A stretch of DNA of 36,299 nucleotides from a virus: positions 1 to 36,299 of the IMG/VR virus record IMGVR_UViG_3300034092_000622, one strand, 5' to 3'. Below are positions 2,229 through 36,299 of the stretch, piece by piece. The first letter of the stretch is position 1; the number at the start of each line of letters is the position of its first letter. A program made the translations under genes and the position numbers. The notes beneath the pieces were generated by a model. The model saw only the letters and a list, made by a program, of their open reading frames with translations. It made no database searches and was not told the origin of the DNA.

Positions 2229-2462
2229 TTAACGGTCGAAAGGGTCAGAAACGTGCGGCGCAATGCGGAACGCGTCGCGGGTCGGCATGTCGTCGAGGTG
2301 TCCAGCATCGACTGCCCATTGGCAGTCCCGTAGGTGCTCCGCCAGTGCAGCGTCGGCGTCGCCGTAGCTCTCGAACGTCTCCGGCTGCTCATCAAGCTCC
2401 CAGACGTTTTCCCAATGGTTGCCGATTAGGGTCAGCACTACCCATTGCTGCGCGGCGGTCAT
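2229..2462 (-). CDS. Small acidic hypothetical protein
   Basis: A 77-aa acidic protein (start MTAAQQWVVLTLIGNHWENV) with a Trp-rich beta-like N-terminus and an Ala/Glu/Asp-rich middle. Its ATG overlaps the TGA of the upstream 61-aa gene in an ATGA junction. The upstream gene's last codons supply a strong purine-rich ribosome site (GGAGGAAAAGG). No family recognised. It is part of the leftward early operon. Confidence 0.7.
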   Translation of the reverse strand: MTAAQQWVVLTLIGNHWENVWELDEQPETFESYGDADAALAEHLRDCQWAVDAGHLDDMPTRDAFRIAPHVSDPFDR

Positions 2463-2474
2463 GCCTTTTCCTCC
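2459..2474 (-). repeat. 16-bp repeated gene junction, copy 1
   Basis: The + strand 16-mer TCATGCCTTTTCCTCC occurs here and again, identical, at 2641-2656. On the coding strand it carries a ribosome site, the last codons EEKA of one gene, and the ATGA stop/start overlap with the next, so the same coupling junction is used twice in a row. Confidence 0.8.
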
Positions 2475-2644
2475 TCATAGGTATCTTCGGGACATCCAAT
2501 CGCTTCGAGTAATTCATCGTCCGACATTTCTGCCAATCGCAGAAAGATTGCTTCCCGTACTTCAGTAGGGGTTGTGCGTTCGCCGTCCTCGCTGCTATTG
2601 ATGACCAAAAAGGCGATGGAATACATATGGTTGTAGCGTTTCAT
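2459..2644 (-). CDS. Small hypothetical protein
   Basis: A 61-aa protein (start MKRYNHMYSIAFLVINSSED). I start it at 2644 because that ATG overlaps the TGA of the upstream gene (ATGA) and follows GGGAGGAAAAGG. The open frame runs further upstream but only over that other gene. The sequence has a beta-strand start, then an acidic helical part with the pattern TPTEVREAIFLRLAEMSDDEL, reminiscent of small phage proteins of unknown role. It ends EEEKA, like its upstream neighbour, owing to a 16-bp repeat at both junctions. Confidence 0.7.
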   Translation of the reverse strand: MKRYNHMYSIAFLVINSSEDGERTTPTEVREAIFLRLAEMSDDELLEAIGCPEDTYEEEKA

Positions 2645-2920: not shown

Positions 2921-2941
2921 CGGTTGTCGGTTGTCGGTTGT
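2921..2941. repeat. Heptanucleotide tandem repeat, 3 perfect copies
   Basis: CGGTTGT occurs three times head to tail (2921-2927, 2928-2934, 2935-2941), right after the start codon of the leftward gene. Seven is not a multiple of three, so each gain or loss of a copy shifts the frame; two copies restore the conserved frame. Confidence 0.95.
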
Positions 2942-2995
2942 CATGTCGTGAACTCCAGTTTAGTGTATCGAACGAAATAATCTTACAGTCTGTAA

Positions 2996-3492: not shown

Positions 3493-3620
3493 CTTTTTCT
3501 TTTTAAGTCAGTAAAAAAAATATACTGTATAAACATACAGCATACAGCGTGCAGCGCTCGCACCGTTGGAGCCGCGCCGATTTTTTTTCGATGACCACAT
3601 TGCCCACATTGCCCACAACT
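3471..3620. repeat. Long imperfect inverted repeat around the A+T-rich core
   Basis: The left arm 3471-3493 (AGTTGTGGGC ... GGTCATC) matches the right arm 3590-3620 (GATGACC ... GCCCACAACT) when reverse-complemented; the right arm has one extra 9-bp unit minus one base. The loop of about 96 bases holds poly-T and poly-A runs and the SOS-like box. Confidence 0.75.
3523..3542. promoter_or_regulatory. LexA (SOS) box-like operator
   Basis: TACTGTATAAACATACAGCA contains CTGT-N8-ACAG and matches the enterobacterial LexA consensus TACTGTATATATATACAGTA at 17 of 20 positions by my count. It lies in the A+T-rich core between the iteron clusters and overlaps a possible -10 (TATACT, 3521-3526). If real, host LexA would bind here and release after DNA damage. 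Confidence 0.6.
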
Positions 3621-3748
3621 CGACTTTGCGCTCGATTGCCCACATTGCCCACAATTCGACTTGTCGGCGCATTGCCCACATTGCCCACACCTGCTAGGCC
3701 GCGCGCCACACCGCCGCGCGCCGCGTGGGTCGTGCCCACATTGCCCAC
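3594..3748 (+). repeat. Iteron cluster, plus orientation, partly with 36-bp period
   Basis: TGCCCAC starts at 3601, 3610, 3637, 3646, 3673, 3682, 3733 and 3742. The units come in pairs 9 bp apart (ATTGCCCACATTGCCCACA). The first three pairs start at exactly 36-bp intervals; the fourth follows after 60 bp. A degenerate unit precedes the first pair (3594-3600), and an isolated TGCCCAC lies at 3960. This is a protein-binding array, not coding sequence. Confidence 0.9.
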
Positions 3749-22419: not shown

Positions 22420-23186
22420 TGGCCATTGGAACCGCAGCAGCAATCCTTGGCAGCGCCGTTATTGGCGGTGCCGTCGCGTCGCGGGGGGCCAGCAAGGCCG
22501 CCAAAGCGCAGCAGCAAGCCGCCGATCAAGCGGCGCAAGTGCAGCGCGAGACGTTCGAGCGGCAGGTAGAGCTTCAAGAGCCGTTTCGTCAAGCGGGCAT
22601 GGCGTCGCAGAATGAGCTGATGCGTATGCTGGGGCTTAGCGGCGAGCCCGGTACCCCCGGTTACGGATCAATCGGCGCGCCGTTTACGGCAGAGCAGATG
22701 CAAGCCGACCCCGGCTATGCCTTCCGGCTTGCCGAAGGCGAGAAGGCGTTGGAGCGTATGCAGGCCGCTCGCGGACAGTTGCTCGGTGGCGGCGCTATCC
22801 GCGCTGGCGTGCGGTACGGGCAGGAGATGGGCTCGCAAGAGTACATGAACGCCTTCAATCGCGCCCAAGCGTTGATGGGCACACGCCTTGGCGCGCTTGG
22901 CAGCTTGTACGGCGGCGGCTTGGCAACGGCACAACAGGTTGCAGGGCAGGCTGGCCAGATGGGCACCAACGTCGGCAACCTAATGATGGGCGCCGGGCAG
23001 GCTCGCGCGTCGGGCTACCTTGGACAGTCAAACGCACTGGCGCAGGCGCTTGGGCAGGCGGCTACGGGCTACGGCCTCTATCGGGGCGGATATTTTGGCC
23101 CGACTGGCGGCGCGCCTGCGGGTGCCGCAGGACCGTATGGCGGCTCTGCCATACCGTACACCGGCCAATACGGCACGGGGGGTTAA
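22419..23186 (+). CDS. Putative DNA ejection / internal virion protein
   Basis: A 255-aa protein. An N-terminal hydrophobic Ala/Gly helix (AIGTAAAILGSAVIGGAVAS) is followed by a long Gln/Ala-rich amphipathic helix (about 25-60) and a repetitive Gly/Ala/Gln-rich part (GQAGQMGTNVGNLMMGAGQA). This plan, and the position before two more helical proteins, correspond to the P22 gp7/gp20/gp16 set that is ejected to carry DNA across the envelope. The ATG overlaps the acetyltransferase stop (TAATG). Confidence 0.7.
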   Translation: MAIGTAAAILGSAVIGGAVASRGASKAAKAQQQAADQAAQVQRETFERQVELQEPFRQAGMASQNELMRMLGLSGEPGTPGYGSIGAPFTAEQMQADPGYAFRLAEGEKALERMQAARGQLLGGGAIRAGVRYGQEMGSQEYMNAFNRAQALMGTRLGALGSLYGGGLATAQQVAGQAGQMGTNVGNLMMGAGQARASGYLGQSNALAQALGQAATGYGLYRGGYFGPTGGAPAGAAGPYGGSAIPYTGQYGTGG

Positions 23187-34789: not shown

Positions 34790-36299
34790 ATGAAGTTCGC
34801 TGAATATATTAACAGTATCGCTCCCGAAGGGGAAACAATTTTATTCGTGCGTCAGGTGCCGATCGTCCGCAACGGCGAGCACTTGATGCACAAGGACGGC
34901 ACGCCGCGCTACACCTGGCCTGCGGGCCTCTACGGCAAGTACATGCGCAACCCCAAGGGCGCGTGGTACGCCAACACGGGCTGTTTCATCCTTGACCGCC
35001 TGACGGACGGCGTGTCGGCATCGGCGGCTAACTGCGAGCGCGTGGCGTTCATGGTGCTCGATGACATTGGCACCAAGAGCAAGACGCCGCCCATCGAGCC
35101 GACGTGGAAGCTAGAAACCAGCCCCGGCAACTTCCAGTGGGGCTACACCTTTGGGCTTGACGATCAGCCGACCAAAGGCGAGTTCAGCGCGGCGATTAAG
35201 GCCATGGCCGAGGCGGGCTACACTGACCCTGGTGCGGTGAATCCGGTGCGTAATTTCCGCATCGAGGGCAGCGTTAACTTGAAGGAAGGCCGCGACAACT
35301 TCGCCGCCGTGTTGACTGAGTTCCACCCCGAGCGCGAGTTCTCTTTAACGCAGATCGTTACAGCCTGCGGCGTCACGCCGGGCGAGGTCGATACGGCCTG
35401 TATCCACGGCATCGCCATCGAAGATGACGGCCTCGACAACGTGCTGGAGTGGATACAAGAGCGCGGGCTACTGCTCGCCAAGGCCAACCCCGAGGGTTGG
35501 TACGGCGTCGTCTGCCCGAACCACGCTGAGCACACCACAGCCGACGCGCAGGGGCGGTATCACCCCGTCACGCGCAGCTATACTTGTTTCCACGGGCATT
35601 GCAGCGACTGGAACAGCGAGAAGTTCCTGCGCTGGGTCGAGGCCGAGGGCGGCCCCAAGACGGGCTACGGCCTGCGCGATGACCTGCTCGCCAAGAAGAT
35701 GGAGGCTGCTTTGTCGAAGATCACACCGACCGAAGAATACCCAGATGAAGCCGCCGAGGTCATCAAAGAGGTCGAGCGCCGTGAGCTCGGTCGCGTCGAG
35801 AAGTCCAAGTGGTATGAGCGTTTCGCGTACGTCGTGAGCGACGATGCTTATTTTGATTTAGCCGAGCGCCATGAGATCGCCCGCACGTCGTTCAACGCCC
35901 TGTTCCGCCATGTGACGTGCCACAGCATCCACAACAACCGCCGCATCGAGGCGTCAGTCTGCTACGACGAGAACCGTCAGGCCATGGGCGCGCATGTGCT
36001 CGCAGGCGTCACGTTCGCAGCGGGCGAGTCCATCCTTGTTAGCCGTAACGGTGTCGTCTACGGCAACCGCTGGCGCGACGCTCGACCTACTGTCAGTGCA
36101 GGCGACGTGGGCCCATGGCTCGCCCACGCCGAGCGCATGATCCCAGACCCCGCCGAGCGCGAGCATGTGCTTGATGTGATGGCCTACAAGCGCCAGCACG
36201 CCAACCAAAAGATTAACCATGCCGTACTGCACGCCGGCAAGCCTGGCAGTGGTAAGGACACGCTCTGGGCGCCGTTCTTCTGGTCTATTGGCGGCGATC
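34790..36299 (+). CDS. Primase-helicase, N-terminal part (continues at base 1)
   Basis: Starts MKFAEYINSIAPEGETILFV at the ATG after a GGAG site and stays open to the window end; with bases 1-912 the protein is 764 aa. The first about 230 residues are an archaeo-eukaryotic primase domain of the RepB-like type: strand FMVLDDIG (Asp91/Asp92, metal ligands) and LETSPGNFQW (about 108-117). Then comes a likely zinc ribbon: Cys242-x2-His245, and a CFHGHC group at 266-271. The C-terminal helicase part begins near the window end. It makes primers and unwinds DNA. The gene is missing from one-piece gene calling only because the circle is cut here. Confidence 0.93.
   Translation, partial: MKFAEYINSIAPEGETILFVRQVPIVRNGEHLMHKDGTPRYTWPAGLYGKYMRNPKGAWYANTGCFILDRLTDGVSASAANCERVAFMVLDDIGTKSKTPPIEPTWKLETSPGNFQWGYTFGLDDQPTKGEFSAAIKAMAEAGYTDPGAVNPVRNFRIEGSVNLKEGRDNFAAVLTEFHPEREFSLTQIVTACGVTPGEVDTACIHGIAIEDDGLDNVLEWIQERGLLLAKANPEGWYGVVCPNHAEHTTADAQGRYHPVTRSYTCFHGHCSDWNSEKFLRWVEAEGGPKTGYGLRDDLLAKKMEAALSKITPTEEYPDEAAEVIKEVERRELGRVEKSKWYERFAYVVSDDAYFDLAERHEIARTSFNALFRHVTCHSIHNNRRIEASVCYDENRQAMGAHVLAGVTFAAGESILVSRNGVVYGNRWRDARPTVSAGDVGPWLAHAERMIPDPAEREHVLDVMAYKRQHANQKINHAVLHAGKPGSGKDTLWAPFFWSIGGD
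36173..36299. repeat. Terminal direct repeat, right copy
   Basis: Identical to bases 1-127. See the left copy; one of the two should be removed when closing the circle. Confidence 0.95.

Follow-up and report, generated by a model that had tools for sequence, protein, structure and literature searches.

In bacteriophage CUS-3 (a prophage of E. coli K1), the cargo gene neuO has its reading frame set by a heptanucleotide array in the 5′ part of the coding sequence; the repeat unit is AAGACTC and occurs in 3-53 copies, 20 being the commonest number (PMC13001214). The heptamer loci hmw1A and hmw2A comprise 13-38 units (PMC2651432). Short arrays vary as well: 13 of 59 short tetranucleotide arrays (three or more units) in Staphylococcus aureus genomes differ between strains, tetranucleotide slippage in icaC of the same species is found as sporadic natural alleles (PMC4117637), and a CTGG repeat forms an indel hotspot at position 592 of lacI (PMC3485313). 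As lacI and the S. aureus arrays illustrate, short coding repeats can gain and lose single units without being dedicated switches. Here, we compare with these systems a heptamer array at the very start of a small gene in a viral genome of 36,299 nucleotides (IMG/VR record IMGVR_UViG_3300034092_000622), the whole of which is termed the window in the following. With its three units, the array is located at the bottom of the heptamer contingency range known from neuO.

The heptamer array and the DUF7249-like gene

According to PHROGs assignments, the window represents a podovirus whose head genes (portal, scaffold, coat and head closure) are of the P22 type and which also encodes a DNA polymerase. 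By terminase, the annotated phages closest to it are Podoviridae sp. ctNMl277 and Phage DSL-LC05. Within a minus-strand cluster of small ORFs, three perfect tandem copies of CGGTTGT (ACAACCG on the minus strand) occupy positions 2921-2941, as seen by TRF, which calls TCGGTTG x3.3 with 100% matches at 2920-2942, and by direct reading. They follow an ATG start codon (2942-2944, minus strand) that also serves the relatives and is preceded by a Shine-Dalgarno-like GGAG (2956-2953) at a spacing of 8 bases; the leader reads CTAAACTGGAGTTCACGACATG. Translation from this ATG yields MTTDNRQPI and ends at codon 10 with TAA (2917-2915), such that the truncated frame covers nine codons plus stop at 2915-2944. 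The sequence 3′ of the array, YNGWTNFPTWKVNLELFDSIDP..., remains open for 92 codons (YNGWTNFPTW...) followed by TGA, is intact and spans positions 2641-2919 on the minus strand in a frame that differs from that of ATG 2944-2942. In this remainder frame, a TGA overlaps the ATG, no ATG, GTG or TTG was found upstream of NGWTN, and the earliest start is TTG 2874-2872, downstream of that motif. With two copies of the repeat, the same ATG would open a 98-aa DUF7249-like protein (NGWTN...TW). A sequence-only reading of the window had reported the three perfect copies behind the start codon, the GGAG with its 8-base spacing, the premature end at codon 10 and the 98-aa protein encoded by a two-copy form; our analysis bears out all four statements, and real relatives carry such a two-copy form.

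Homology to accepted DUF7249 members and the NGWTN/TW motif place the remainder in this family. Its match to the DUF7249 profile (PF23907; E 1.3e-4, 23.4 bits) falls short of the curated threshold of 27 bits, while the homologues in L004 and L017 reach the threshold and that of the sister L017 exceeds it. When nine sequences are aligned, with 49-95% identity to L005 in the first row, NGWTN, TW and DVNW are invariant. Viral relatives of the family are very common, since a profile search retrieved at least 385 among 599 candidates (window 2944-2641, L025-L104). A search of the literature library for DUF7249 returned no paper, a tblastn search of 50,697 records found no close homologues in annotated phages, and MW202483 and OR003940, the nearest annotated phages by terminase, gave no DUF7249 match in a search run without a positive control. 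An identical leader, AAAGGACACTACACCATG, is located 5′ of the ATG in diverged DUF7249 genes of L006, L008, L014, L031 and L033-L035.

The stop codon of the DUF7249-like gene overlaps by 4 bases with the ATG of a small downstream ORF (2459-2644, minus strand) encoding 61 aa (MKRYNHMYSI...). This overlap may entail a partial loss of translational coupling, but a polar effect is not required as the downstream ORF has its own GGAGG at 2656-2652. The C-terminal part of another minus-strand ORF (1289-1837) has matches among the phage 'nucleotide kinase' PHROGs, phrog_236 being one of several. Imperfect 36-base repeats made of CATTGCCCACATTGCCCACA reside at 3595-3689 between divergent gene modules and possibly represent operators or origin repeats. 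Motifs of the same kind, GTGGGCAATGTGGGCAA, adjoin an apparently non-coding heptamer array (CGTCAGC x13.7, positions 1249-1344) in contig L031, which is a more typical hypervariable array than that at 2921-2941.

The latter is the sole perfect array with at least three copies and a period of 4-12 in the window, and none of 60 Markov-2 simulations produced a three-copy array of period 7. The fetched loci, which are mostly viral and total 544 kb, contain six perfect arrays with a period of 5-12 and at least three copies, and the array is therefore uncommon, yet not extraordinary. Perfect two-copy 7-mer tandems occur seven times in the window besides the array locus, for example at 23060 and 27699, so that raw material for slippage is common.

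Copy number in relatives and state of the out-of-frame remainder

All eight close relatives with an MTTDNR-type N-terminus carry exactly two copies and are in frame (L003, L004, L005, L006, L007, L014, L017 and L018), with L003-L007 providing the unbiased part of this evidence, as the other three were fetched via the two-unit DNA pattern itself. Their genes read MTTDNRYNGWTN... and encode 98 aa. L003, L004 and L005 are closest to the window (about 90% identity at the locus), the other five being more distant. Since the relatives have two copies, the three-copy form is the derived state: two copies of ACAACCG are the ancestral condition and the third is a frameshifting duplication. Relatives outside this close group have different N-termini and lack a perfect heptamer repeat, as exemplified by L008 with its unrelated, repeat-free MSTNTTHNGW. 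A start just before NGWTN was in frame in all 87 relatives scanned (86 ATG, one GTG); a broken start was found exclusively in the window and its clone-mate L002.

The three-copy form is thus known from one lineage, consisting of the window and the identical L002, the latter being the only other genome found with the exact leader of the window. A one-copy form did not appear in the scan of viral contigs, a four-copy form was not found either, and scans for the conserved start and the exact leader revealed no copy-number state beyond two and three. The sequence-only reading had proposed possible phage phase variation. What holds of the proposal is the frame logic of two and three copies, to which the two-copy relatives conform, but phase variation itself is unsupported because two comparative hallmarks of contingency loci are lacking. 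Copy number does not vary repeatedly among close relatives (two in eight, three in the window and L002), and an array beyond chance length that is kept across the gene family is not evident, as L008 and the remoter members lack a perfect repeat and the window has seven other two-copy 7-mers.

The out-of-frame remainder (2641-2919) is free of stops and indels. Its dN/dS against L003-L005 amounts to 0.13-0.21, compared with 0.09-0.11 among L003-L005, and by a rough calculation neutral drift of the frame in the window can account for no more than some 15% of the branch. Several of the amino acids in which the window differs also occur in L007 or L006, and these differences could be ancestral or due to recombination. 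The break in the frame is either recent or intermittent, and the sequence data fit both.

Origin of the third repeat unit

It could be argued that the third copy does not exist in the virus and that the true genome has two copies, as does every relative other than L002. We consider such an assembly or sequencing artefact very improbable because L002 (IMGVR_UViG_3300044613_002017), a separate IMG/VR contig that is 100% identical to the window over 4515 bp and likely stems from an independent assembly, also has three copies, and because of an exact 127-base terminal repeat in the window (positions 1-127 equal 36173-36299). L002 crosses the ends of the window, which is therefore circular or terminally redundant, and the 127-base overlap, equal in length to a common assembler k-mer, suggests assembly of a circular contig with k=127, which greatly exceeds the array. 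In that case, assembly would have needed reads that span all 21 bp of the array. By inspection, the remaining indels that separate the window from its nearest relatives are mostly net multiples of three or extragenic, and hence a general tendency to frameshift errors is not apparent. The third copy thus probably belongs to the true sequence.

Given a real third copy, the array could be a true contingency locus at which slippage within the phage population turns the DUF7249 gene on (two units) and off (three units). Such a locus appears unlikely to us, although the array 2921-2941 has a unit length that is not a multiple of three and lies at the 5′ end of a coding sequence whose remainder frame is intact, and although neuO of phage CUS-3 switches by this type of mechanism (PMC13001214). 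The position exactly at the start codon, which is typical of contingency repeats, and the intact ribosome binding site weigh against a one-off, ordinary slippage mutation, as does the undecayed frame, which fits intermittent on-switching equally well. On the other side, copy numbers of two and three are all that was found, three is confined to a single clone, the rest of the DUF7249 family is devoid of a perfect repeat, and three 7-bp units are very short compared with heptamer loci of 13-38 units or with neuO and its commonest number of 20; true contingency loci built of heptamers as a rule exceed the array in the window in length. A related idea, which we rate as rather improbable, is a minimal switch (two on, three off) under nucleotide-level selection at the start codon, by which a podophage population toggles a small accessory protein. 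The 15 nucleotides after the ATG are indeed invariant across five lineages whose dS reaches about 1.2, but p is about 0.025 for this five-codon invariance, and equal or longer invariant runs are present elsewhere in the gene, so that the case for selection on the codons of the repeat appears weak and unconvincing. The gene might also be expressed in spite of its third copy. GAC, AAC and CGA recur exactly 7 bases apart, and a 7-base ribosomal hop from one CGA to the next would restore MTTDNR-YNGW precisely; a +1 shift before the TAA is another variant of such recoding, which the low decay of the remainder frame would favour. The three-copy form is not conserved, however, all relatives are simply in frame, and it contains neither an internal Shine-Dalgarno sequence nor a known shift signal, which makes recoding hardly credible. 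Internal restart at TTG 2874-2872, in frame with the remainder, would yield a 77-aa protein lacking NGWTN. It is highly unlikely, as the TTG is not preceded by a Shine-Dalgarno-like sequence and the product would lack the region that is best conserved in the family.

We therefore favour an ordinary single slippage event, from two to three units in a coincidental two-copy 7-mer, as the probable origin of an accessory-gene allele that has recently lost its reading frame. The starting point would have been (ACAACCG)2, carried by the phage group as part of the MTTDNR codons, to which one replication-slippage event, the presumed mechanism, would have added a third 7-base unit. The resulting shift by +7 would terminate translation at codon 10 and, in a single phage clone, silence this small DUF7249-family accessory gene, with probable loss of the protein. 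As the remainder frame is undecayed, the duplication would be recent. Loss of a unit could restore the gene, if rarely, and regular switching at the array does not seem to take place.

Comparison with known repeat loci

If single slippage is indeed the cause, the locus offers a clear natural case in which slippage at a short repeat has disrupted a phage gene, and the relatives establish the polarity of the change. Should switching be true after all, it would add a further phage-borne heptamer switch after neuO, in the widespread DUF7249 family. As matters stand, the main lesson is one of caution, as a short repeat at the start codon of a single assembled genome does not by itself equal phase variation. 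The earlier notion that few contingency repeats are known in phages needs correction, as neuO of CUS-3 is a heptamer switch in 5′ coding position, and the mechanism imagined for the window is thus already known in a phage-borne gene (PMC13001214). The likeness between neuO and the gene in the window extends to a phage-borne location, a heptamer array in the 5′ coding region and a reading frame determined by copy number. They differ in repeat unit and gene, and whereas copy-number mixtures and many switching genomes have been observed for neuO, the locus in the window exists with two or three units and a single deviating clone. The gene in the window shares with icaC a short intragenic array whose frame is disrupted when a single unit is added or removed; icaC, however, is a bacterial gene for which reversion and selection have been demonstrated. 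The CTGG repeat of lacI consists of three copies, (CTGG)3, and lacI likewise resembles the gene in the window in that gain or loss of one unit in a very short coding tandem repeat results in a frameshift, with the difference that lacI represents a mutational hotspot without adaptive role in a bacterial reporter and the window a gene of a phage.
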